From Nitrospirales bacterium (GTDB taxonomy: Bacteria; Nitrospirota; Nitrospiria; Nitrospirales; UBA8639), in contig BQIY01000048.1 in NCBI GenBank assembly GCA_021604265.1, positions 1-10,007 of the forward strand: a stretch of DNA of 10,007 nucleotides, written 5' to 3'. Positions 124-9,645 of this stretch are shown here, one piece after another (within the stretch, counting starts at the first letter, position 1; every line of letters starts with the position of its first letter). A program made the translations under genes and the position numbers. Below the pieces are notes generated by a model that was not told the DNA's origin, did no database searches, and was given only the letters and a program-made list of their open reading frames with translations.

Positions 124-209
124 TAGATTCAGGACACGGAATAGCTAAGTCTTTGTGGCTCTGATACATTAATGTTCTTCAAAATTGTTACTGAGTACCG
201 ACTATCCTT

Positions 210-225
210 ATTACAGGTGTCCTGT
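210..225. promoter_or_regulatory. Inverted repeat upstream of the ferredoxin gene, also a stray copy of the array 1 core
   Basis: ACAGG-TGT-CCTGT at 213-225 is a perfect 5-bp inverted repeat with a 3-base centre, shaped like a regulator half-site pair, about 50 bp upstream of the preferred ferredoxin start. Separately, 210-223 is the exact reverse complement of 14 bases (598-611) in the second unit of the tandem array downstream of the gene. It could be an operator, a remnant of the repeat family, or both. No convincing sigma-70 promoter was found next to it. Confidence 0.3.
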
Positions 226-277: not shown

Positions 278-505
278 ATGATGGTAACTAGAGATCACCT
301 CGTTCGTCACCCAGACCGTTGTACCCATAATGCCGTGTGTATTCCCGTGTGTCCAACCGGCGCATGGCTCTCAACCCCTCCCTTTAAATTTGATTCGTCC
401 CGTTGTATGGAATCCTGTCGGCTCTGCCTAGACGCCTGCCCGACTCAGGCCATCTACACCGTCTTTAGAAAGGGTGAAAAAGTCCTTCTTCCACCTCAGG
501 ACTAG
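278..505 (+). CDS. Small ferredoxin-like Fe-S protein with seven cysteines
   Basis: This 75-residue protein has two cysteine motifs in a bacterial 2[4Fe-4S] ferredoxin arrangement. The first is C15-x5-C21-x3-C25-P followed by TGA. The second is C43-x3-C47-x2-C50-x3-C54-P followed by TQA. The CPTGA and CPTQA sequences are typical cluster-binding ends, so an electron-carrier role in the cytoplasm or attached to a redox complex is likely. The expected second cysteine of motif 1 is Asn18, and the first cysteine of motif 2 is displaced by one residue. Seven cysteines would fit a [3Fe-4S][4Fe-4S] (seven-iron) protein or one degenerate cluster; that is inference. There is no signal peptide. The stop codon touches the first unit of tandem array 1, and no partner enzyme gene adjoins it. 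The start was chosen for its AAGGAG site; in-frame starts at 185 and 227 remain possible. Confidence 0.8.
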   Translation: MMVTRDHLVRHPDRCTHNAVCIPVCPTGAWLSTPPFKFDSSRCMESCRLCLDACPTQAIYTVFRKGEKVLLPPQD

Positions 506-886
506 GACACCTGTCAGCAACACTCCTTGGGCCTCTATGCCTTACAAGCCATGGTCCAACACCCCGTTGCCATGCCCGCCTTGAACGATCGTGTCCGAGG
601 ACACCTGTAATCAACACTCCTTGGGCCTCTATGCCTCTTAAGCCAGGGTCCAACATCCCGTTGCCATACCCACCTTGAACGATCGTGTCCGAGGACACCT
701 GTCAGCAACACTCTTGGGCCTCTATGCCTCACAAGCCATGGTCCAACACCCCGTTGCCATGCCCGCCTTGAACGATGGTGTCCGAGGACACCTGTCAGCA
801 ACACTCTTGGGCCTCTATGCCTCACAAGCCATAGTCCAACACCCCGTTCCATGCCCGCCTTGAACGATCGTGTCCGAGAACACCTG
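504..886. repeat. Tandem array 1: four 92-94 bp units plus a partial fifth
   Basis: Units begin with AGGACACCTG at 504, 598, 692 and 785, with lengths 94, 94, 93 and 92. A decayed start of a fifth unit (AGAACACCTG) lies at 877-886. Units 3 and 4 share a one-base deletion in the CTCCTTGGG stretch, so they are the most recent duplicates, while unit 2 is the most diverged. Each internal junction reads GTGTCC-GA-GGACAC, so every unit starts and ends with complementary hexamers. Inside unit 1, GCAAC (517-521) can pair with GTTGC (566-570). The array fills the 400-bp gap between the converging ferredoxin and squalene/phytoene synthase genes. The period is not a multiple of three and the open frames in it are not credible genes. 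It resembles array 2 (3585-3883) when that is read on the minus strand. Confidence 0.9.
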
Positions 887-905
887 ATCAACTCAACAGA
901 CCCCC

Positions 906-1946
906 TCACACCACACGTTTTCGCAGATAGCCCCAATAGGCTGTTCCGACAGATCCACATCCACCAGATAATGTTGTCAGCGCCATAATTCGATACACGT
1001 CCCCACGAGAGACTTTTGACGGAGTAGTTGGATCGAGGATATGCGGTGAGACAGACAACTGCTGAAGCGTCCGGAGACCAATCAAAATTGGCCACATGCA
1101 CGCGAGCCGCAATCGAACCTCAAGACGAGGGATCGCCATCGTATAGCTCCATCCTTGATCTAAGTGCCCAAGAGCGGTGGCAATCAATTGCTTGAGAATC
1201 GGACGAAGACGCTGAGCATTTCGTTGATCTAGCAAATCTTCCGGCTGGAGATGCGCTTCATCCAAAAGATGTTGAGGGATATAACACCGACCAAGACGAA
1301 GATCTTGAGCCACATCTTTCAAAATATTGACTAACTGCAATCCCTTCCCATATCGAATTCCTGTGGGAACCATCACCGACGAATCCCAATGGGAGAGGCG
1401 AGGAAGATGGGCACACATGATTTTCGTCCAAAACTCCCCGACACACCCGGCGACTGCATACGTATAATAATCCAATTCTTTCATTGTCGGCAGTGCCGTC
1501 ACCCGCCCCTCAGATTGCTGAGGAAATTGCACAAGGTCAAATTCCATCCCTGCAATAATTGTTGGAAGCAATTCGGCAATGAGTTGTCGATCTTCACATG
1601 AGAGGGTTTCATACAACCCGAAACAGCGAGGAAGCTCTTCAAGTAATACCCGCTCACTCGGATCTCGTTGCAGCGAGGCAGCCAAAGCTTGAATCGATTG
1701 CACATCGGCTGCTTGGACTTGGCCATGTCGAAACTGTGCCTTGAATTGCTGGAGACAATGAAGCCTGGCCTCATGAGTGAGTTCGCCTGTATCTGCAATC
1801 GTATCCGCCGCTCGAGCAAACAAGTACGCGAGACCAACTTGCGAACGAACAGCAGTAGGCAGCACAGCTAGCGTGAGATAAAAAGACCGGGAAACACGTT
1901 TCAGAATCGTTTGAAGAAGGAACCTGTCTGTTGGTGGCGGAATCAT
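906..1946 (-). CDS. Squalene/phytoene synthase family protein (probable squalene synthase)
   Basis: This 346-residue protein belongs to the head-to-head trans-isoprenyl diphosphate synthases, which join two farnesyl diphosphates (or C20 units) through a cyclopropyl intermediate at the membrane surface. Visible marks are VSRSF (18-22); the first Asp-rich motif D48-TIA-D52; YYTYAVAGCVG at 160-170, matching the family's Y-x-x-x-VAG-x-VG segment; and the second Asp-rich motif NILKDVAQD with D211 and D215, followed by LGRCYIP. Length is normal for the family. A late KVSRGDVYRIM segment (311-321) resembles the K-x-x-(R/K) region of eukaryotic-type squalene synthases, so squalene is my first guess, with presqualene diphosphate, dehydrosqualene or phytoene as alternatives. 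The ATG lies 14 bp after the cupredoxin stop and lacks a clear Shine-Dalgarno site, which suggests translational coupling. No hopanoid or carotenoid gene adjoins it here. Confidence 0.88.
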   Translation of the reverse strand: MIPPPTDRFLLQTILKRVSRSFYLTLAVLPTAVRSQVGLAYLFARAADTIADTGELTHEARLHCLQQFKAQFRHGQVQAADVQSIQALAASLQRDPSERVLLEELPRCFGLYETLSCEDRQLIAELLPTIIAGMEFDLVQFPQQSEGRVTALPTMKELDYYTYAVAGCVGEFWTKIMCAHLPRLSHWDSSVMVPTGIRYGKGLQLVNILKDVAQDLRLGRCYIPQHLLDEAHLQPEDLLDQRNAQRLRPILKQLIATALGHLDQGWSYTMAIPRLEVRLRLACMWPILIGLRTLQQLSVSPHILDPTTPSKVSRGDVYRIMALTTLSGGCGSVGTAYWGYLRKRVV

Positions 1947-1960
1947 CTATTAAAGAAATG

Positions 1961-2470
1961 TCAGCGAACGGTGAGCATGCCTTCCATACCTTCTTCTCGA
2001 TGATCAGGGAAAAAGAGCAGCTGTTTATCGCAATAAAAAATATGCGCTCCGCTCTGAGTCGGGGTGAAATGAACCGTGACCTGCTCGCCGCTATCAACAT
2101 TTGCCTCAATCAGGCGAACACCATCAGGCGAATCCAACAGAAAGTTGTGCGGCACAAGAAACGACTCATTTTTCAGCAGAAATTCAATAGGTTGTCCAAC
2201 CTCAGCTGTCAACGTGTGCGGCGTAAACGTATAGCTCTCCATTGTGATAACTTGCAGCCCAGGCACAGACTCGATCGGCGCGCCTGCCTCCTGAGACCAC
2301 GCAGGACCTTGACTCAGCACGAGACCGCTGAGCATGACCCACACCACAAACACAATCTCATGAGGCCAAGGCCATGATAAATATTTCACAAATAATGTCT
2401 TTCTAGAAACTTGGGGATATTCAAACTTATTGAAACGCAGTATAATACCTGCAGGGGAAATAAGAATCAT
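1961..2470 (-). CDS. Exported cupredoxin (type 1 copper protein)
   Basis: The last 95 residues or so form a plastocyanin-like cupredoxin domain. With the ATG at 2470 (169 residues), the likely copper ligands are H108 (VPHNF), C147 (FYCDK), H157 (PDHRE) and M162 (EEGM). The usual C-x4-H-x4-M loop is lengthened to C-x9-H-x4-M. A hydrophobic stretch (about 38-53) followed by GPAWSQEA is a Sec signal peptide or membrane anchor, so the domain should work outside the inner membrane as an electron carrier or copper protein. The start is unsettled. AGAGGAG lies only 2 bases before a TTG at 2482 and 14 bases before the ATG at 2470; a GTG at 2389 would give the most conventional signal peptide (MKYLSWPWPHE, then the hydrophobic core) but has only a weak AGAAAG site. 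The gene is followed after 14 bp by the squalene/phytoene synthase gene. Confidence 0.82.
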   Translation of the reverse strand: MILISPAGIILRFNKFEYPQVSRKTLFVKYLSWPWPHEIVFVVWVMLSGLVLSQGPAWSQEAGAPIESVPGLQVITMESYTFTPHTLTAEVGQPIEFLLKNESFLVPHNFLLDSPDGVRLIEANVDSGEQVTVHFTPTQSGAHIFYCDKQLLFFPDHREEGMEGMLTVR

Positions 2471-2490
2471 CTTTTTGGCCAAGGCTCCTC

Positions 2491-2532
2491 TTGACTCGTC
2501 AGAAAAAAGTACTATCTTTCAAATAGATAGTA
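2491..2532. promoter_or_regulatory. Possible htpX promoter with an overlapping inverted repeat
   Basis: TACTATCT (2510-2517) and AGATAGTA (2525-2532) form a perfect 8-bp inverted repeat with a 7-base spacer in the divergent region between the cupredoxin and htpX genes. On the plus strand, TTGACT (2491-2496) and TATCTT (2513-2518) with a 16-base spacer make a passable sigma-70 promoter whose -10 lies in the left arm. That placement would suit a repressor acting on htpX. A hairpin in DNA or RNA is an alternative. Both the promoter and the operator role are inferred. Confidence 0.35.
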
Positions 2533-2630
2533 GACATTACGGGACCACATCTGAGTAACGTTCGATAAGATTCACTATCAACACATATCAAGGCTCATCA
2601 GCAAGTATTTATATAAAAGGGGGAGATTCG

Positions 2631-3515
2631 ATGAAAAATTTGAAAGGTATAGGGTTGTTGCTCCTCGCCAACATCCTCATCTTTATCACATTGTCCATTA
2701 CATTCACGGTTCTATCCGAGTTCATCCTGCCGTCGTTCGGAATTGATATACGTGGATCGATTGGACAGCAAGATTTGCTGTGGGCCTTTGTCTTTGGTTT
2801 TGGCGGCGCCTTTATCAGCTTGGCATTCTCCAAGCAAATGGCCAAAAGCATGATGAACTGTCAGCAAATCACCCAACCGCGTACACAAGCGGAAATGCTG
2901 GTTTTTGAAACTGTTCAAAAAATATCCACACGCTTGGATGTCAAAATGCCTGAGGTGTACGTCTACGAAGGAGAAGACCCCAACGCCTTTGCAACCGGAC
3001 CATCGAAGAATAATTCCATGGTGGCCGTCTCAACCGGCTTGCTCAGGAATCTCAATGAAAATGAAGTCCGGGCTGTACTTGCCCACGAAATGGGACATGT
3101 CTATAACGGCGATATGTTTACCACCACGATCTTAGCCGGCCTCATGAACACCTTCGTCTACTTTATTAGCCGGTGGGTGTATCGACAAGTCGCGGAACGG
3201 AACCCCATGCTCGGGTTCGGCGTCTATATTTTCTTACAGATTGTCTTATCGTTCCTGGCTATGATTCCGATCAGCTGGTGGTCACGACGACGAGAATTTG
3301 TCGCCGATCGATTTGCCGCCAACACAGTCGGCAAAGAACATATGATTTCAGCCCTGCAATCCATTGACCGTTGGGTCAAAGGCGTTGAATATCAGTATAG
3401 TACTGAAGACGCACTTGCCACGATGAAGATCTCAGGGCAAACCAGGAGCATGATGCAAATGTTTGCCACTCACCCGCCCATCGAAGCTCGAGTGGCCGCC
3501 CTGCAACGTCTGTAA
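2631..3515 (+). CDS. htpX: HtpX, membrane zinc metalloprotease (M48B)
   Basis: This 294-residue protein is close in length to E. coli HtpX and has its layout. There are two N-terminal membrane segments (about 5-29 and 50-67), a DPNAFATG motif (116-123), the zinc site HEMGH at 152-156, two further hydrophobic segments (about 163-185 and 194-216), and EFVAD at 222-226, whose Glu222 should be the third zinc ligand. A late FATHPP motif precedes the C-terminus. HtpX cleaves misfolded or damaged inner-membrane proteins and works alongside FtsH in envelope stress. The ATG is preceded by AAAAGGGGGAG at 5-base spacing, a strong ribosome binding site. The gene stands alone with a strong terminator 24 bp after the stop. 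The divergent spacer carries an inverted repeat over a possible promoter, so stress-linked control is plausible but unproven. Confidence 0.96.
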   Translation: MKNLKGIGLLLLANILIFITLSITFTVLSEFILPSFGIDIRGSIGQQDLLWAFVFGFGGAFISLAFSKQMAKSMMNCQQITQPRTQAEMLVFETVQKISTRLDVKMPEVYVYEGEDPNAFATGPSKNNSMVAVSTGLLRNLNENEVRAVLAHEMGHVYNGDMFTTTILAGLMNTFVYFISRWVYRQVAERNPMLGFGVYIFLQIVLSFLAMIPISWWSRRREFVADRFAANTVGKEHMISALQSIDRWVKGVEYQYSTEDALATMKISGQTRSMMQMFATHPPIEARVAALQRL

Positions 3516-3538
3516 GTTTTACAACCATAGACATCACC

Positions 3539-3573
3539 AAAAAGGGGCTTGCTATTCAGCAAGCCCCTTTTTT
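3539..3573 (+). terminator. Intrinsic terminator after htpX
   Basis: A 15-bp perfect stem (3539-3553 with 3558-3572) containing GGGGCTTGCT / AGCAAGCCCC closes over the 4-base loop ATTC and ends in a T-run. The A-run at its left edge makes it potentially bidirectional, so it could also stop transcripts reading out of pal and array 2 on the minus strand. Confidence 0.93.
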
Positions 3574-3584
3574 ACTTCTCCTAA

Positions 3585-3883
3585 TTGACTCAAGATCACC
3601 TAGGCAACGATTGTTGCACCCTGCTAGCCCAACTGCACTGGCAACCCAGATTGAACACTGCCTGCTCACTGAGGGGTTGATTTCAGGTCGCCTAGGCAAC
3701 GATTGTTGCACCCTGCTAGCCCAACCGCACTGGCAACCCAGATTGAACACTGCCTGCTCACTGAGGGGTTGATTTCAGGTCGCCTAGGCGACGATTGTTG
3801 CACCCTGCTAGCCCAACCGCACTGGCAACCCAGATTGAACACTGCCTGCTCACTGAGGGGTTGATTTCAGGTCGCCTAGGCAA
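3585..3883. repeat. Tandem array 2: three 92 bp units with degenerate edges
   Basis: CCTAGGC recurs at 3599, 3691, 3783 and 3875, exactly 92 bp apart. The three full units differ at only about one base each, so they were duplicated or homogenised recently. A decayed left edge (about 3585-3598) and a 9-base right fragment flank them. Each junction is centred on GCCTAGGC, and at 3780-3793 it becomes a perfect 14-bp palindrome, GTCGCCTAGGCGAC. Within units, GCAAC-GATT-GTTGC forms a small hairpin (the variant GCGAC in unit 3 still pairs through G-T), and CAACCC (3642-3647) can pair with GGGTTG (3674-3679). The array fills the gap between the htpX terminator and the converging pal gene. Read on the minus strand it matches the junction core of array 1. 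No credible ORF lies inside. Confidence 0.92.
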
Positions 3884-3911
3884 ACGTAATACTGTGCCTC
3901 AAACATTAGAA

Positions 3912-4613
3912 CTACGGTTGAAACACAAAGTGACTTCGACGATTATGTTTCCAACAATTCAACGAATGTTGAGAGCAAAATGGTTTGGCTTTGCCATAAC
4001 TCAACACTTCCATACTTTCAGGAGGAACACCCAGATCGACTAAATAGTCTTTCACCGCTTGCGCCCGCCGCACGCCAAGCGCCAAATTATACTCTTCGGT
4101 TCCACGCTCATCGCAATGACCTTGAATAATGACCTTTTTCTTAGGATAACGGCCCAAGAGGATTTTGGCATTGGTTTGCAATTCACTTAAATCATTGGGC
4201 CGAAGCGTGTATTGGTCATAATCAAAAAAGACATCCGTTAACGTATACGGAATACCCTCAAGATCATCAGGTTTAGCGAGATCAGAAATCGGTGCCGGGC
4301 GAGAGAGATCGGCTATAGGCTCACGGGCACCTTCCCCAGATGAGGCATACATATCATTGACATTCACTGGCTCATCCGGTTCACGTGACTGAGACCGTTC
4401 AGGCTCGGATTTGGCAACTGGTAAAATAGGAGGAGCCTCGATAGGGATTTCTTCCAATTGATTCGTAGTCATTTCATTTATTGGCGATTGACTATTAACT
4501 CGGGTGTGCTGACGCGAACTGCATCCTTCCAGGAACACCAGAATGCTCAAAATCAACAAGCCGAAGCTCACGATTGAATGCATACCCGACCGCTTTCCAA
4601 CGCAATGAACCAT
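3912..4613 (-). CDS. pal: Pal-type peptidoglycan-associated outer-membrane lipoprotein
   Basis: This 233-residue lipoprotein has a signal peptide with hydrophobic core SIVSFGLLILSILVF and lipobox LEGC, so Cys31 should be the lipidated first residue. A Pro/Glu/Ser-rich linker (about 32-120) leads to a C-terminal OmpA-like domain (about 124-233). That domain carries FFDYDQYTLRP, QGHCDERGTEEYNLALG (164-180), RRAQAVKDYL, the SYGKAKPFC segment and the closing NRRSHFV, all standard for Pal. Pal binds peptidoglycan and works with TolB in envelope constriction, but no tol genes adjoin it here. The linker looks longer than in E. coli Pal. The ATG at 4613 has GGGAG (4622-4626) 8 bases upstream. The frame stays open to an ATG at 4664 with no well-placed site, and ATG 4583 would also leave a signal peptide. 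Array 2 begins just after its stop. Confidence 0.93.
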   Translation of the reverse strand: MVHCVGKRSGMHSIVSFGLLILSILVFLEGCSSRQHTRVNSQSPINEMTTNQLEEIPIEAPPILPVAKSEPERSQSREPDEPVNVNDMYASSGEGAREPIADLSRPAPISDLAKPDDLEGIPYTLTDVFFDYDQYTLRPNDLSELQTNAKILLGRYPKKKVIIQGHCDERGTEEYNLALGVRRAQAVKDYLVDLGVPPESMEVLSYGKAKPFCSQHSLNCWKHNRRSHFVFQP

Positions 4614-4709
4614 GACGCGATCTCCCGATCCTAGCCAACCACCAATAATGGCCACTGTACTCATGACACAAATGAAGGTGAAAACTCCTCCCTTGTCATC
4701 ATCAATAGC

Positions 4710-4910: not shown

Positions 4911-5870
4911 ATGATTGAAGTTCAGCACGTCACAAAATGGTATGGCCCGCTCACCGCCGTTCAAGATATTTCCTTTTCCGTTGCCAAAGGGGAAATTGTG
5001 GGATTTCTTGGCCCGAATGGAGCTGGCAAAACGACGACCATGCGCATATTGACGGGCTATATGCCCGCCACAAACGGCTCTGTCCGTGTTGCAGACTTTG
5101 ACTGCCATGAATCACCATTGGACGTAAAACGACGAATAGGATATCTCCCAGAACATCCCCCCCTGTACCTTGAATTAACGGTTTATGAATACCTGACCTT
5201 CGTTGGACGAATGAAAGGCGTTGAGATGGGACAGGTTGCCCAGCGGATGGAGCGCGTGGTCGAACAAACCGGACTGGGAGAAGTCAAAAAACGGGTCATT
5301 GGAAATTTATCTCGAGGATACCGGCAACGGGTCGGCTTAGCACAAGCCCTCATTCATGATCCTCCGGTGCTTATCCTTGATGAGCCGACGGTTGGACTGG
5401 ACCCCAATCAAATTATCGAAATTCGTGAACTCATTCACAGCCTAAGAGGCTCCCATACCATTATTCTGAGCACTCACATTCTGCCGGAAGCCACGGCATT
5501 GTGCGAACGGGTTATTATTATTCATCGCGGAAAAATTGTCGCCATTGATACCCAGGAACAACTCGCCACTCGTCTTCGCCAGTCAGAAAAACTGCGGGTC
5601 ACCGTCAAAACGAGTCTGCCTGATATGGAAGACCAGCTACGAATGGTTCCCGGGGTCATCAATGTCTCTGCCGGGGAGTCAGTCAACACCTACCTAGTCG
5701 ATGCAGAACTCGGACATGACATTCGAGAAGCCGTCACGGAGTTTGTTATGACCCATCAATTAGGACTTCTGGAACTCGCCGTCGTCTCCATGTCTCTTGA
5801 GGATGTCTTTATTCAGCTCACGAAACAGGATTCATCGCACCCTCGCTCAGGAAACAACCAATCATCATGA
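4911..5870 (+). CDS. ABC transporter ATPase, GldA-like
   Basis: This 319-residue nucleotide-binding subunit powers the exporter encoded by the next two genes. Visible motifs are Walker A GPNGAGKTT (34-42), signature LSRGYRQR (133-140), Walker B VLILDEPT (153-160), D-loop GLDP (162-165) and H-loop His189. The Q-loop position reads GYLPEHPPLY, with Glu81 where most ABC ATPases have Gln; as I recall this is common in the GldA/NatA-like branch. Residues after about 220 form the usual C-terminal extension. The start at 4911 gives MIEVQHVTKWYG, the normal beginning for the family, though only weak ribosome-binding sequence precedes it; the frame is open back to a GTG at 4845 with no better site. 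The last four bases overlap the permease start (ATGA). The natural substrate is unknown, and Gld-type systems also occur in bacteria that do not glide. Confidence 0.93.
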   Translation: MIEVQHVTKWYGPLTAVQDISFSVAKGEIVGFLGPNGAGKTTTMRILTGYMPATNGSVRVADFDCHESPLDVKRRIGYLPEHPPLYLELTVYEYLTFVGRMKGVEMGQVAQRMERVVEQTGLGEVKKRVIGNLSRGYRQRVGLAQALIHDPPVLILDEPTVGLDPNQIIEIRELIHSLRGSHTIILSTHILPEATALCERVIIIHRGKIVAIDTQEQLATRLRQSEKLRVTVKTSLPDMEDQLRMVPGVINVSAGESVNTYLVDAELGHDIREAVTEFVMTHQLGLLELAVVSMSLEDVFIQLTKQDSSHPRSGNNQSS

Positions 5871-6637
5871 GACCTGTCACGACCCTGCTGGCGAAAGAAT
5901 TGCGCTGTTACTTCGTCTCACCCATTGTGTACGTCATTGCAGCCGTGTTTTTAGGTCTCGTCGGACTGCTGAGTTATTGGGCTGTAGTCAATGCCAGTGG
6001 GCAGGCCTTACGAATGATGCAAGTGTCGAATACCTATGCCCAAATTAACTTAAATGACCTGGTCTTCCGGCCCATGTTCTTCAGCATGAACCTTGTCCTG
6101 ATGTTTGTCTTACCGCTGTTGACGATGCGCACCTTTGCAGAAGAACGAAAACTCCGGACGTTTGAGTTGCTGCTCACGTCTCCGATCGGCATTAATGAAA
6201 TTGTCTCAGCCAAATTCCTCAGCGTGCTGGTCATTTATCTGATTCTTCTCATCTTCACCGGATTGATTCCGTTGGTGCTCTCAGCTTACGTCAGCTTCAA
6301 TTGGGACCCCATCTGGACTGGCTTTGTCGCCTTGCTGCTCCAGGGCGCATTTATGCTCGCTATTGGCGTCCTGGCCTCAGCGATGACCGAGAATCAAATC
6401 ATTGCGGCATTTTTGAGCTTTGGCATTATTTTACTGATTTGGCTGCTCGGCCTCTTCGCCACAGTCCTTGGGGATTCGACGTTAGGACACCTCTTCTCGT
6501 ACCTCTCATTCACCGAGCATTACGAACGTCTGGTTCGAGGTCTCGTGAGTGTGAAAGATATTGTGTATTACCTCTCAGGCATGGCCTTTATGTGGTTTGC
6601 TGCCCATCAAGTGATTGACGCCCATCGATGGAAATGA
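5867..6637 (+). CDS. ABC-2 type permease, GldF-like
   Basis: This 256-residue inner-membrane protein has about six hydrophobic segments (near 19-41, 70-88, 115-141, 152-172, 177-201 and 231-248). The EERKLRTFELLLTSP motif (92-106) between segments 2 and 3 is the cytoplasmic coupling-helix region typical of ABC-2 and GldF permeases. The N-terminal LLAKELRCYFVSPI and the late SYLSFTEHYERLVRGL segment are also characteristic. It would form the membrane channel with the ATPase encoded just upstream, probably as a dimer. Its ATG overlaps the ATPase stop by 4 bp, and its own stop overlaps the next gene, which indicates translational coupling. Substrate unknown. Confidence 0.92.
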   Translation: MRPVTTLLAKELRCYFVSPIVYVIAAVFLGLVGLLSYWAVVNASGQALRMMQVSNTYAQINLNDLVFRPMFFSMNLVLMFVLPLLTMRTFAEERKLRTFELLLTSPIGINEIVSAKFLSVLVIYLILLIFTGLIPLVLSAYVSFNWDPIWTGFVALLLQGAFMLAIGVLASAMTENQIIAAFLSFGIILLIWLLGLFATVLGDSTLGHLFSYLSFTEHYERLVRGLVSVKDIVYYLSGMAFMWFAAHQVIDAHRWK

Positions 6638-8157
6638 GTCGTTTTATCCCCATTCTCGGTGGTCTCGGAATCATCCTCGCTCTCGCAGGCGTGATAGTCC
6701 CGCTCATTGTTCCTCAAACCCATTGGTTCACGACTGCTTGTGAAATCGTTGCCTTGCTGTGCTTAACGACTGTCTGCTTCTATCACATCAAAACCATTAA
6801 AAGCTTTTCACAGCAACGCTCCACACGAATGGGGCTGAACAGCATCGTGGCAGTCGTGATGGTTGGAGCGATTCTGGTGATCATCAATTTCCTCGCGGCT
6901 CGTCATGCCCCGGAATGGGACTATTCCGAAACTCAGCACTTCACCCTTTCCAGGCAGACCTACCAAGTTTTACGAAAATTGGAGCAACCGGTTGCGATTA
7001 AAGTCTTTGCTCATGAGCGAAGCCCCAACTTTGCAGCCTTTCGCGATTTACTGAATACCTACACAAAAGAAACATCAAAAGTCTCTGTAGAATTTATCGA
7101 TCCCGAGCGGCAACCTGACATGGCCAAAGCCTATGCCATCACGCAGGTTGATACGGCAGTTGTCGAAAGCTCAGCACAAAAAATCTATCTCAACGAAGCT
7201 TCAGAAAATGAAGTCACCAATGCCTTGCTCCGCGTAACCCAAACCGCTAAAAAACGGCTGATCTTTCTCACCGGCCATGGAGAAAAAGGATTAACCGACC
7301 AACAATCGTCCGGTCTCTCCCGTGCTCAAGATGCATTAGAGAAACAGGGGTATCAGATCGACACAATTCCCAACATGACGCGTGAACACATCCAGTCAAC
7401 AGCTACAACAATCATCATGGCCTCACCTCAAGAACCATTGACGAAGGATGAACAAGTCAATCTCCAGCAGTATCTTCAGCAAGGAGGCCACTTGCTCCTA
7501 CTCGTTGACCCTCAGAATCAAGACTCAGTCGATGCCCTCACTCAGCATTGGGGCGTGACATTAGGGAAAGGGATTGTGGTCGACGAAGAACATCGGCTTG
7601 GACGCGGCAGTCCCACGGCATTGCAGATTCGAACCTTTACCGGTCATGACATCACTGATGAATTTACCGTACCGATCCTGCTTCCCGTCTCTCGATACAT
7701 TGACTTTGACATGGAAAACGGTCAAGACTGGGACTTCGTGTCGCTCGCGCAAACATCAGAGAATAGTTGGGCAGAAATGAATACGACGAAGACCACGCCG
7801 GAACTGAACACCGGTGAAGATGTCGAAGGACCGCTCACCATCGCCGCCGCCTTAACCGCAAAGACCTCATCGGAGGAGGGTCAGAATCCGGCCAAGATTG
7901 TGATCGTCGGCAACTCATCGTTTACGACAAATGGCTATTTGACCTATCCCGGCAATACCGACTTCTTTTTAAAAACCGTCGCCTGGCTGGCGGACGAAGG
8001 ACACCTGGTCTCCATCACGCCTAAGGAACCAGCCTTCCGGCCATTTGTCCCCAATCCGTCTCAGGAACAAGCCCTGCTTTTTTTCCAAGTCTTGTTCTTG
8101 CCGTCATTCACCTTATTTCTTGGGTTTTCTGTCTGGAAGAGACGCCGTCAGTTGTAA
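6634..8157 (+). CDS. GldG-like ABC transporter auxiliary protein
   Basis: From the ATG at 6634 this is 507 residues. It has three N-terminal membrane segments (about 6-26, 33-51 and 69-88), a large extracytoplasmic region, and a C-terminal membrane helix (about 481-500) ending in KRRRQL. Family marks include INFLAARH, the segment DYSETQHFTLSRQTYQVL, PVAIKVF, FIDPER and TGHGEK (near 213-218), as in GldG-type proteins of the ABC_transp_aux group. The soluble part is thought to act with the permease outside the membrane; no catalytic role is established. The start at 6634 overlaps the permease stop as ATGA, matching the previous gene junction; an in-frame ATG at 6628 adds two residues and neither has a strong ribosome binding site. 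A 120-bp gap separates it from the DUF4340 gene. Confidence 0.9.
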   Translation: MSRFIPILGGLGIILALAGVIVPLIVPQTHWFTTACEIVALLCLTTVCFYHIKTIKSFSQQRSTRMGLNSIVAVVMVGAILVIINFLAARHAPEWDYSETQHFTLSRQTYQVLRKLEQPVAIKVFAHERSPNFAAFRDLLNTYTKETSKVSVEFIDPERQPDMAKAYAITQVDTAVVESSAQKIYLNEASENEVTNALLRVTQTAKKRLIFLTGHGEKGLTDQQSSGLSRAQDALEKQGYQIDTIPNMTREHIQSTATTIIMASPQEPLTKDEQVNLQQYLQQGGHLLLLVDPQNQDSVDALTQHWGVTLGKGIVVDEEHRLGRGSPTALQIRTFTGHDITDEFTVPILLPVSRYIDFDMENGQDWDFVSLAQTSENSWAEMNTTKTTPELNTGEDVEGPLTIAAALTAKTSSEEGQNPAKIVIVGNSSFTTNGYLTYPGNTDFFLKTVAWLADEGHLVSITPKEPAFRPFVPNPSQEQALLFFQVLFLPSFTLFLGFSVWKRRRQL

Positions 8158-8277
8158 CAATACATGCGACAATCACGCCTGATTGAATCTAAGTTTCACA
8201 AGAAACAAGAGTTCTACATTGAATATGAAAGCAATCGAATAGGATGCGCATTATCTCTGCACTGGAGTCTGTAAAAG

Positions 8278-9645
8278 ATGTCTAGCTCGTACCGATTGAC
8301 CGTCATTCTCGCCGTCATTCTGCTGGGAATCGGAGGCTACGTGTATTTTGTCGATGTCCCGGCATCCGAGCAGGCGGTTCAGGTTAAGCAGGAACAACGG
8401 CAGCTGATTCCATTCGATGACCGTCACATCACGCAGCTGACATTAAAAACGGACAACGAACATATCATCTTTGACCGGGGCGAACGTGGCCGCTGGCTGA
8501 TTACCACACCATTGACAGCTCCAGCTGATGGACGAGAGGTCAGAAAAATTCTTCGCGCATTAACTCTGGGAAAAATCGAACGCGTCATTCAAGAGCAGGC
8601 AACTAACATTGAACAATACGGCCTTGAACCGCCCCATATGACCATCACCGTCACGGATGGAGAGCAAACCCTATCACTTGGCCTAGGAAATCCCGGTCCG
8701 TTTTCCTCTTCGCTGTATGTACGAAAATTCGCCGATAATAGTGTCGTCCTCACCACACTGGATGTCCTGACGTTCGCCAAAAAGAACTTATACACATTTC
8801 GGCTGAAAGACGTGAACTTTTTTAATCACGCGAATGTTGAACATCTCGAACTTCAGACTCAAGGGCAAAAGACCGTGCTCCACCGCGTTCCCGGCGTTCA
8901 TGGCATGAGTCCTAATTGGCGATTTACGCAACCAATCGAAGGACCGGCCGACAAAACAACCGTAGGCATTTTATTAATGGCGCTGGAAGATCTGAAAGCC
9001 GAAAAATTTGTGGATACGGAGAAGCAGAAACTCGCCCTTCTCAAATCTTTAGGCAAGCCCGTCGCTACGGCGGTCATGAAGACGGAAAAACACACGCACC
9101 CCGTATCATTTTATCAGAATGCCGAGGAAACCTACGCTCAAACCTCACCAGAGAAACCGCTATACCTGGTTCACTCACAAATCGTGAAGGAAGTTTCAAA
9201 AGGACTGTTTGGGTTACGCGACAAACGGCTATTAGGCATTCCAGTCGATGAACTGACCATCGTCCGCATTACGACTCCTCAAGAAACCTATGGACTCATT
9301 AATCAAAACGAGATATGGTTATGGGAAGAAGACCCTGCCACACCGCTGAACCAACAAGCCGTAAAACTCTTAGTCAGTCGTCTGGCCGACTTACCCGCCG
9401 AGCATCGTATCAAGAAAGAGGAAACGGCACTCGACCAATATGGATTAGACCAACCCATGTTTAAGATTGCGGCAACCGATCAACGGGGACGAGAACGAGG
9501 ACGCCTCCGTATCGGAAATGCGGAGCATGGCCTCGTCTACGCCACCGGCGCCGGGCTTCCCGGTATTGTCCAGGCCCGCTCAAACATCCTGACGCAAATT
9601 CCCGCCCTCTCACAACTCATCGAGCGCATTCACGAACGCGAATAA
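8278..9645 (+). CDS. Membrane-anchored DUF4340-type protein, partner of the GldAFG exporter
   Basis: This 455-residue protein has one N-terminal membrane helix (about 7-24) and a long extracytoplasmic part. I see three related modules, each opening with a Trp-led strand and a Pro-containing turn: RWLITTPLTAPADG (72-85), NWRFTQPIEGPADK (213-226) and IWLWEEDPATPLNQ (346-359). Each continues with a helix of the LLxALxxL type, and modules 1 and 3 have a YGLxxP motif (114-118 and 388-393). This is the DUF4340 pattern. Such genes commonly follow GldA-GldF-GldG type operons and are presumed to work with the exporter; the molecular role is unknown. GGAG lies 10 bases before the ATG. The spacing from the upstream gene is wider than within the core operon, so it may also have its own promoter, but I found no convincing one. 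Confidence 0.88.
   Translation: MSSSYRLTVILAVILLGIGGYVYFVDVPASEQAVQVKQEQRQLIPFDDRHITQLTLKTDNEHIIFDRGERGRWLITTPLTAPADGREVRKILRALTLGKIERVIQEQATNIEQYGLEPPHMTITVTDGEQTLSLGLGNPGPFSSSLYVRKFADNSVVLTTLDVLTFAKKNLYTFRLKDVNFFNHANVEHLELQTQGQKTVLHRVPGVHGMSPNWRFTQPIEGPADKTTVGILLMALEDLKAEKFVDTEKQKLALLKSLGKPVATAVMKTEKHTHPVSFYQNAEETYAQTSPEKPLYLVHSQIVKEVSKGLFGLRDKRLLGIPVDELTIVRITTPQETYGLINQNEIWLWEEDPATPLNQQAVKLLVSRLADLPAEHRIKKEETALDQYGLDQPMFKIAATDQRGRERGRLRIGNAEHGLVYATGAGLPGIVQARSNILTQIPALSQLIERIHERE

Follow-up and report, generated by a model that had tools for sequence, protein, structure and literature searches.

Within a 10,007-nt stretch of DNA from a Nitrospirales bacterium (contig BQIY01000048.1; the whole stretch is hereafter called the window), two tandem arrays with units of about 92 bp lie in the gaps between genes, and the question that this locus raises is whether the two arrays are related to each other and, if so, what kind of element they consist of. 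The original prediction, made from the letters of the window alone, held that both come from one dispersed repeat family, of which they would be diverged members facing opposite ways. We found that both arrays belong to a large, high-copy family of intergenic repeats of ∼95 nt that occurs in a few nitrite-oxidising-type Nitrospirales and is apparently undescribed. The family itself, the definition of its ends by pairing, and its narrow distribution are well supported. As to what the units are, we propose, with about an even chance of being right, that they are an old, non-autonomous interspersed mobile element of one Nitrospirales clade that is recognised as a folded single strand.

The arrays and their family

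Tandem Repeats Finder placed array 1 at 504-886 (period 93, 4.1 copies, 92% matches) and array 2 at 3599-3883 (period 92, 3.1 copies, 98% matches). Refinement of the borders gave four units over 502-878 for array 1, with neighbours sharing 4 nt and periods of 94, 94, and 93, and three units over 3600-3879 on the minus strand for array 2, with a period of 92; both predicted arrays exist, with their unit borders slightly shifted. The uneven periods of array 1 leave no constant reading frame, and a coding-repeat reading was therefore rejected; a 188-aa antisense open reading frame (ORF) spanning array 1 was taken as mechanical. When array 2 was reverse-complemented, the best local alignment of the doubled consensus units scored 29, with 30/44 columns identical, and 4 of 500 dinucleotide shuffles (16.7 ± 3.1) reached this score. 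With both arrays read in the same orientation the score was 17, which 320/500 shuffles reached. The junction identity of ∼28/40 claimed for the two arrays thus held in its dependence on orientation but is modest taken alone, and the match becomes secure once outside sequence is added.

The relatives examined first were NPIRA01, NPIRA04, NPIRA02, and OFTM51, whose loci are located in genomes G001, G002, G003, and G004, respectively. HtpX identifies the window as Nitrospirales DNA, being 98% identical to that of NPIRA01, 98% to that of NPIRA04, and 97% to that of NPIRA02 (metagenome-assembled genomes), and 91% to that of OFTM51. Two covariance models were built, R1 from 39 of 51 units selected from 108 scanned (the scan required at least 5/6 inner pairs) and R2 from 33 of these 39, with the units of the window and of locus L004 removed. 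Although it contains no window sequence, R2 recovered array 1 (best E 1.2e-11), array 2 (5.8e-9), and a copy at 129-225 on the minus strand (1.3e-5), which bears out the prediction that the two arrays are oppositely oriented members of one dispersed family. That prediction did not include the third window copy, the 9-bp paired stem of variable sequence, or the motifs inside the stem that are described below. Degenerate counterparts of the 129-225 copy were seen by eye in L003 and L004, and the sequence is missing in L001 and L002.

In a comparison of array 1 with the four genomes, the core matches elsewhere were mostly 25-38 nt long, and several were arrays with ∼92 spacing and different interiors. 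R1 matches at E ≤ 1 (best ≤150 candidates per genome scored) numbered 148 in G001, 122 in G002, 121 in G003, 56 in G004, 4 in G009, and 1 in G008 (E 0.43), with none in G005 and G007. The further copies that a dispersed family implies are therefore present at more than 100 matches in each of three relatives. At E ≤ 0.001 (best ≤87 candidates scored), 6 of the 48 genomes of a family-level sample had matches (G001 84, G002 79, G003 81, G004 43, G027 18, G009 3) and 42 had none; across a phylum-level sample of 395 genomes (best 10 candidates per genome scored), matches occurred in four, all known carriers. The 18 matches of the more distant carrier G027 lie on C2, a chromosome-size contig of 3.77 Mb. 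A phage-borne family was considered as well, and two exact patterns, covering two arm sequences only, gave 0 matches in viral contigs.

A further family copy lies on the minus strand at L002:251-346, ∼5.7 kb upstream of htpX in NPIRA04; its flanks align to L001, L003, and L004, and the unit itself does not. A weak motif-scan match at window 6482-6571, inside an ABC-2 permease gene and found likewise in L001 and L002, was taken as chance, being coding and missed by the covariance models. The titles and abstract openings of the papers found on repeats or miniature inverted-repeat transposable elements (MITEs) in Nitrospira/Nitrospirota, mostly outside subscription journals, contained no description of the family. 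Two Nitrospirales genome papers had no mention of such repeats for the terms searched (PMC12342949; PMC10579370, in which only "repeated" sorting appeared), and the term "Nitrospir" is absent from PMC2267715.

Unit anatomy and tandem organisation

The units are 92-100 nt long, typically ∼95 nt, and their first nine positions pair with their last nine, forming a terminal stem of 9 bp that closes a loop of ∼75-81 nt and keeps its pairing while its sequence varies. Directly inside the left arm lies CTGTAATC, and the right arm, which almost always begins with G, is preceded by A[TC]C, often after AAC-N (together A[TC]CG); the interior is otherwise hardly conserved. The border of the stem is sharp. 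Among 56 units without a listed neighbour, all found with a stem-scoring model, 50-55 paired at each of the nine positions, as compared with 23 at one position outside and 1 at one position inside. This count, like that of unit identity below and a first comparison of gene context, used a set of 111 units, consisting of 101 model matches minus four weak or truncated ones (L186 8361, L186 13307, L199 8047, and L197 7534) plus 14 neighbours added by hand, with a few borders corrected.

In alignment A1, whose 39 units had been chosen with a pairing requirement, 90.6% of 351 stem cells were paired and double changes occurred in 6/9 pairs; 0/500 shuffles reached any of five pairing measures, and slid controls paired at 17-36%. 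The stem was also evident without such a requirement. When units were defined by the left motif with at most one mismatch and A[TC]CG at 69-80 nt, 73 of the 157 units with distinct sequences paired at 9/9 positions, compared with 8.0 for shuffled partners (79/164 compared with 8.8 when duplicates were included). When a complementary arm was sought at any distance, 71/293 left-motif sites had one (at least 8/9) 55-95 nt away. Complementary arms within 20-110 nt stood at 72-78 nt in 70/72 cases, implying the loop of 75-81 nt, and the reversed control gave 6 within 110 nt.

Consensus folds revealed no internal structure beyond the terminal stem, and seven single units folded no better or mildly better than their shuffles (z -0.68 to -2.36). 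A known RNA family was rejected as an identity for the units: at the gathering score, Rfam gave no match in the window and a tRNA alone in nine unit-bearing loci. A permissive Rfam search of window 480-3900 returned one 22-bit match, at the htpX terminator. Directly after htpX, at 3539-3572 and adjoining the right end of array 2, lies what looks like an ordinary intrinsic terminator, with a T run and a perfect inverted repeat of 15 bp around a 4-nt loop.

Neighbours within an array usually share four bases, CTAG or CAAG, and the period is therefore the unit length minus four. In CAAG-sharing arrays, the outer pairing is lost from the second unit onward, and most inner pairs remain. The weak R2 scores of array 1 unit 3 and array 2 unit 2 (Table 1) arise because their borders are shared with neighbouring units. 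Unit identity averages 0.65 within 700 nt (upper quartile 0.88) compared with 0.47 between loci, and on these values for neighbouring units a CRISPR or CRISPR-like junction reading, with unique spacers between identical repeats, was rejected. Copy number differs between orthologous loci, as in MIRU-like repeats of variable tandem number: array 2 has three units in the window and one degenerate copy in L002 (by eye), and another array has four units in G001 (L194 8822-9210) and two in G003 (L165). To this extent, the tandem expansion that had been proposed for the family is supported. A polarity of the arrays, with fraying on the right side, was considered and dropped. A first scan found that 43/103 last units were followed by a left-end-like stretch (control 2%) and that 9% of first units were preceded by a right-end-like one (control 0.3%). 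Some "last" units, such as the window unit at 596, had a next unit that the filter had missed, and with relaxed recognition the contrast shrank to 19/83 (shuffled 2) and 13/101 (shuffled 0).

Table 1. Repeat units and genes of the window
Feature	Position	Strand	Remarks
Array 1 unit 1	502..599, 98 nt	+	first four bases CTAG (502-505) include the ferredoxin TAG stop; arms CTAGGACAC / GTGTCCGAG
Array 1 unit 2	596..693, 98 nt	+	596-599 common with unit 1; R1 65.9 bits; R2 48.6 bits, E 1.2e-11
Array 1 unit 3	690..786, 97 nt	+	right motif ATGG in place of ATCG; R2 weak, 694-782, E 0.037
Array 1 unit 4	783..878, 96 nt	+	R2 35.2 bits, E 3.3e-8
Array 1, left-end-like remnant past last unit	879..898	+	aacacctgatcaactc...; by eye
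Array 2 unit 1	3784..3879, 96 nt	-	arms CTAGGCGAC / GTCGCCTAG; R2 38.1 bits, E 5.8e-9
Array 2 unit 2	3692..3787, 96 nt	-	arms CTAGGCGAC / GTTGCCTAG, one G-U pair; R2 weak, 3699-3780, E 0.022
Array 2 unit 3	3600..3695, 96 nt	-	R2 38.1 bits, E 6.2e-9
Array 2, possible left-end-like remnant past last unit	3581..3599	-	by eye
Third, single copy upstream of ferredoxin gene	129..225	-	R1 E 2.6e-4; R2 E 1.3e-5
Ferredoxin	227-505 (ORF 185-505; stop 503-505)		Pfam
Squalene/phytoene synthase	906-1946	-	Pfam
Cupredoxin	1961-2482	-	Pfam
M48 peptidase HtpX	2631-3515		Pfam
OmpA/pal-like protein	3912-4664	-	Pfam
ABC transporter cluster	4911-9645		Pfam; includes ABC_transp_aux and DUF4340 proteins

Gene context and orthologous sites

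Within the window both arrays sit between convergent genes; the left end of array 1 overlaps the ferredoxin stop (503-505), and 32 nt separate the left end of array 2 from the point where the OmpA/pal-like gene ends (3912). A convergent-gene niche, as the original prediction had it, did not hold for the family. Of 70 clusters that were clear of ORFs and had both neighbours, 46 were located between same-direction genes, 15 between convergent genes, and 9 between divergent genes, compared with 383, 107, and 137 background gaps, respectively; the clusters are thus not in excess in convergent gaps and are at most mildly scarce in divergent ones. In these counts and in those of stop codons, gene calls are longest ORFs made with no gene finder, and loci shorter than 7 kb were left out; 13/87 clusters overlapped a called ORF by more than 30 nt. 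The units in same-direction gaps ran sense to the genes in 24 cases and antisense in 22, as expected for inserted DNA and not for an mRNA element. A cis-acting mRNA element (terminator, riboswitch) is unlikely, given this lack of strand preference and of internal structure in the consensus folds. Relative to replication, judged by regional GC skew as a proxy, 41/89 clusters lay on the G-rich strand and 48 against it, and on this split a replication-oriented (KOPS-like) motif was rejected.

The predicted position just past gene stops, by comparison, was borne out for one end of the unit. The left end lay within 5 nt of a facing stop codon in 13/41 cases and the right end in 0/40; facing a start, the figures were 2/30 and 0/33, respectively. 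The left end sits at a CTAG/CTTG-type tetranucleotide that is often made by the stop codon: the stops at this junction were TAG in 10 cases and TAA in 3, with TAG ending 232/991 of all called genes. In 118 first or single units (required to have at least 5, or 7, of the nine pairs), the outer tetranucleotides were exact reverse complements in 73, compared with a mean of 26.9 and a maximum of 39 in 1000 shuffles. The commonest were CTAG/CTAG (33 units) and CTTG/CAAG (33 units), with the tetranucleotide paired. CTAG at both ends in the first type is what a target-site duplication would look like, and the second type is inverted and so no direct repeat. The left tetranucleotide was neither CTAG nor CTTG in 38 units, of which 7 were exact complements (CTCG/CGAG 2, GTAG/CTAC 2, CTAA/TTAG, AATG/CATT, and ATAG/CTAT) and 31 were not, some of these being later array units or chance units. 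The tetranucleotide at the ferredoxin stop is CTAG in the window and GTAG in G004; the first unit of G004 ends in CTAC, and the first unit of the window ends in CGAG, which pairs only partly with CTAG. In L081, L095, and L179 (G001, G002, and G003, the last with two such places), unit arrays directly adjoin the palindrome TTCCACGTGGAA, which may be parS-like.

From a stem that appears to be recognised by shape, the target preference of the left end, and the lack of gene-strand bias, we infer mobility as a folded single strand. A trans-acting enzyme would recognise the folded unit, the stem by its shape and the inner motifs by their sequence; it would cut after the left tetranucleotide and join there, the right-end tetranucleotide would pair with the left target tetranucleotide, and arrays would grow and shrink in place via duplication at the shared 4-nt boundary. 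A bolder version, which we consider rather doubtful, is that the right-end tetranucleotide, perhaps the whole 9-nt arm, is a guide by which the element chooses or adapts to its site through pairing with the host DNA left of its other end. The pairings behind it are CTAG (often a host TAG stop) with CTAG, CTTG with CAAG, GTAG (a GAG-TAG gene end) with CTAC, and a CTAA gene end with TTAG.

Orthologous sites bear on both the age and the nature of the units. Flank matching, counted in both directions of comparison, gave 106 flank pairs, 69 with a unit and 37 without a recognisable one; the latter figure is an upper bound, with degenerate copies and a few chance units in it. Orientation was kept in 79 of 82 distinct orthologous unit pairs, although many interiors were only 50-65% identical. 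Some loci overlap (e.g. L004/L259, L163/L230, L165/L234/L236, and L232/L278), and a few units are thus counted twice here and in the count of 79/164 above; a few chance units, L187 12748 for example, are among the clusters compared. Among the 738 stem positions of the 82 pairs, 519 were the same and paired, 53 were changed on both sides and paired, 46 were changed on one side and paired, 102 were unpaired in at least one unit, and 18 were the same but unpaired. In the inner five pairs of 30 locus pairs, 123 were the same and paired, 15/17 double changes kept pairing and 2 did not, and single changes kept it in 5 cases and lost it in 5. In the outer four pairs, 83 were the same and paired, 8/8 double changes kept pairing, single changes kept it in 3 cases and had an unpaired side in 20, and 6 were the same but unpaired. 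Consistent with this, at pairs 4-9 a unit's own arms paired at 351/360 positions, as compared with 329/360 for arms combined from two species; in the 18 locus pairs with a differing inner left arm, the values were 207/216 and 185/216. Compensated stems include CTTGGATAC/GTATCCAAG in G003 compared with CTTGGCCAC/GTGGCCAAG in G001, a site at which G002 retains only a left-end remnant (by eye), and CTAGGGCAC/GTGCCCTAG in G003 compared with GTAGGGCAC/GTGTCCTAC in G004. Replacement of a unit by another copy could be another source of such pairs.

Several of these observations weigh against a mobile element. Many of the compared sites are shared between species (69/106 flank pairs) and give no sign of present mobility. 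No clean empty site retaining the left tetranucleotide was found for any single insertion; the best case is window array 1, where L001 and L002 keep CTAG and the sequence that follows is unrelated. A transposon moving as lagging-strand single-stranded DNA would be expected to show a replication-strand bias, and none was seen. No long version sharing both ends was found in 1.19 Mb; of the 47 forward end pairings more than 110 nt apart, 35 were spaced at 161-368 nt, for the most part close to a multiple of the unit period, and no spacing recurred among the 12 at more than 400 nt. Likewise, no mobilising enzyme could be linked to the family: no unit was found around Y1 transposase genes in 21 sources covering 99.4 kb (a subset of the carriers' Y1 genes), and Y1 (IS200/RAYT) matches occur in 37/48 genomes of the family-level sample, so that Y1 does not track the repeat.

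The same data raise the possibility, less probable in our judgement than mobility but a serious one, that the units are a structured element, either RNA or a DNA cruciform or hairpin, that dispersed anciently and is now selected at fixed sites with its stem and inner motifs maintained; it could, for example, bind a protein, help to organise the chromosome, or be a small structured RNA. The retention of site and orientation despite diverged interiors, the double substitutions that keep pairing in inner and outer stem alike, and the better pairing of own than of cross-species arms are what such selection would leave, and it explains compensated stems at shared sites equally well as mobility does. 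It is less able to explain the random orientation to genes and replication or the flank pairs without a unit, by which many sites look dispensable; nor do the bare consensus folds and the lack of a gathering-level Rfam match in the window and nine loci favour it. The compensation itself is subject to survivorship, since only recognisable units were compared, and copy replacement could mimic it.

Relation to known elements and implications

Two other miniature repeats accompany some units. A composite element of ∼315 bp with GGGCACCTCTAAAAA inverted ends encloses two convergent units at four G003 loci (L177:1492-1820, and near L166:9828-10146, L174, and L180), and G001, G002, and G004 lack the L177 copy at their orthologous site. 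G001-G003 also contain many copies of a second family, of ∼95 bp and with TATAGC-type inverted ends, which holds a unit at several loci and looks like a conventional miniature element with terminal inverted repeats. Examples of this TATAGC(C/G)... family are L182:4575-4671 and 6034-6251, and dozens of matches occur in G002 and G003, alone or joined to units. These associations would suit a decayed passenger, spread mainly as cargo of such elements, whose arms are kept palindromic without selection by template switching during replication. We regard this as improbable. TATAGC-family sequence stood within 150 nt of 15 of 148 units and the composite element within 150 nt of 5; the 128 units with neither mean that carriage explains only part of the spread. 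In addition, arms ∼75-81 nt apart are, in our judgement, far for template switching, which would not keep the conserved, non-palindromic inner motifs, and some units start exactly at a stop codon.

Integron attC sites are recognised by their folded structure; like the units, they vary in sequence and occur in arrays. A known single-strand recombination site, either attC or the end of an IS91-type rolling-circle element, was weighed as an identity for the units, and it is very improbable. Integron integrase (TIGR02249) scored over the curated cut-off in 2/48 genomes of the family-level sample, G022 and G029, neither a carrier (weaker matches in 48/48 are as expected of other tyrosine recombinases); no gene cassettes were seen, and the attC core motif was absent at the unit ends in A1. 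Tandem copies would also fit the rolling-circle copying of IS91-type elements, but their HUH Y2 transposase (PF04986) was found in 11/48 genomes and, among the six carriers, in G002 alone. CAAG is among the listed targets of the IS91-like IS801 (PMC3189936).

Among the closest known elements are REP sequences. REP, BIME, and REPIN repeats often exceed 100 copies per genome and form composite inverted arrangements (PMC2817692), the ends of GTAG REPs are reported to provide the genes beside them with TAG stops (PMC3733652), and in "double foot" REPs the tetranucleotides of the two ends are reverse complements of each other (PMC6006769). The family is similar in its high copy number in intergenic space (56 to 148 matches at E ≤ 1 in four genomes), its foot tetranucleotide, and its ends that supply TAG stops, and the element may well work in a REP- or REPIN-like manner. 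It fails, however, the features that define a REP. A REP is a hairpin that measures 20-40 bp (or 21-65 nt), has a loop of 2-5 nt, and carries a GTAG/CGTC-type tag (PMC3733652, PMC6006769), whereas the units are 92-100 nt long, have a 9-bp stem and their two motifs 72-78 nt apart, and in place of an unpaired tag carry mainly paired CTAG or CTTG/CAAG, with GTAG/CTAC in 2/118. Unlike REPs, they vary in stem sequence even within one genome and are commonly arrayed head to tail, and the 21 Y1 sources yielded no RAYT gene flanked by the repeat.

In IS200/IS605 elements, the left end is flanked by a tetranucleotide that pairs with one belonging to the element (PMC6006769, PMC8266576), and the left-end tetranucleotide of the units is likewise often complementary to one at their other end. 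The IS200/IS605 guides stand 5' of two subterminal hairpins, whereas in the family the two ends are joined by a single stem, with the right-terminal tetranucleotide as the pairing partner; the replication-orientation bias of miniatures derived from IS200/IS605 is also absent (41/89). MITEs of the terminal-inverted-repeat type have conserved ends, whereas the arms of the units vary between copies and co-vary within them. A minisatellite inside a MITE of Porphyromonas gingivalis (PMC4596501) combines tandem repeats with a miniature element, as here, but most units of the family are away from both miniature elements. The family differs, in addition, from the small intergenic repeats of ∼50-130 bp in keeping only two short motifs and pairing. 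Those repeats, such as MIRU, BOX/RUP, ERIC, and STAR, are defined by conserved sequence; some are tandem with variable copy number, and some overlap stop codons (MIRU).

These results describe a repeat family that is defined by pairing more than by sequence and that tools for conserved repeats or short-loop hairpins would therefore miss; RepRanger, with a default maximum loop of 11 nt (PMC12306157), would miss its units. If the pairing between the far end and host DNA reflects targeting, it would represent a new guide/target arrangement in single-strand DNA elements, that is, an element with a re-programmable target in its far end, unlike the subterminal guide of IS200/IS605. For uncultured Nitrospirales, the arrays could be of use as length markers. 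Four species carry orthologous copies with compensated stems, and the family is therefore also a natural test case for whether selection or mobility maintains bacterial interspersed repeats.

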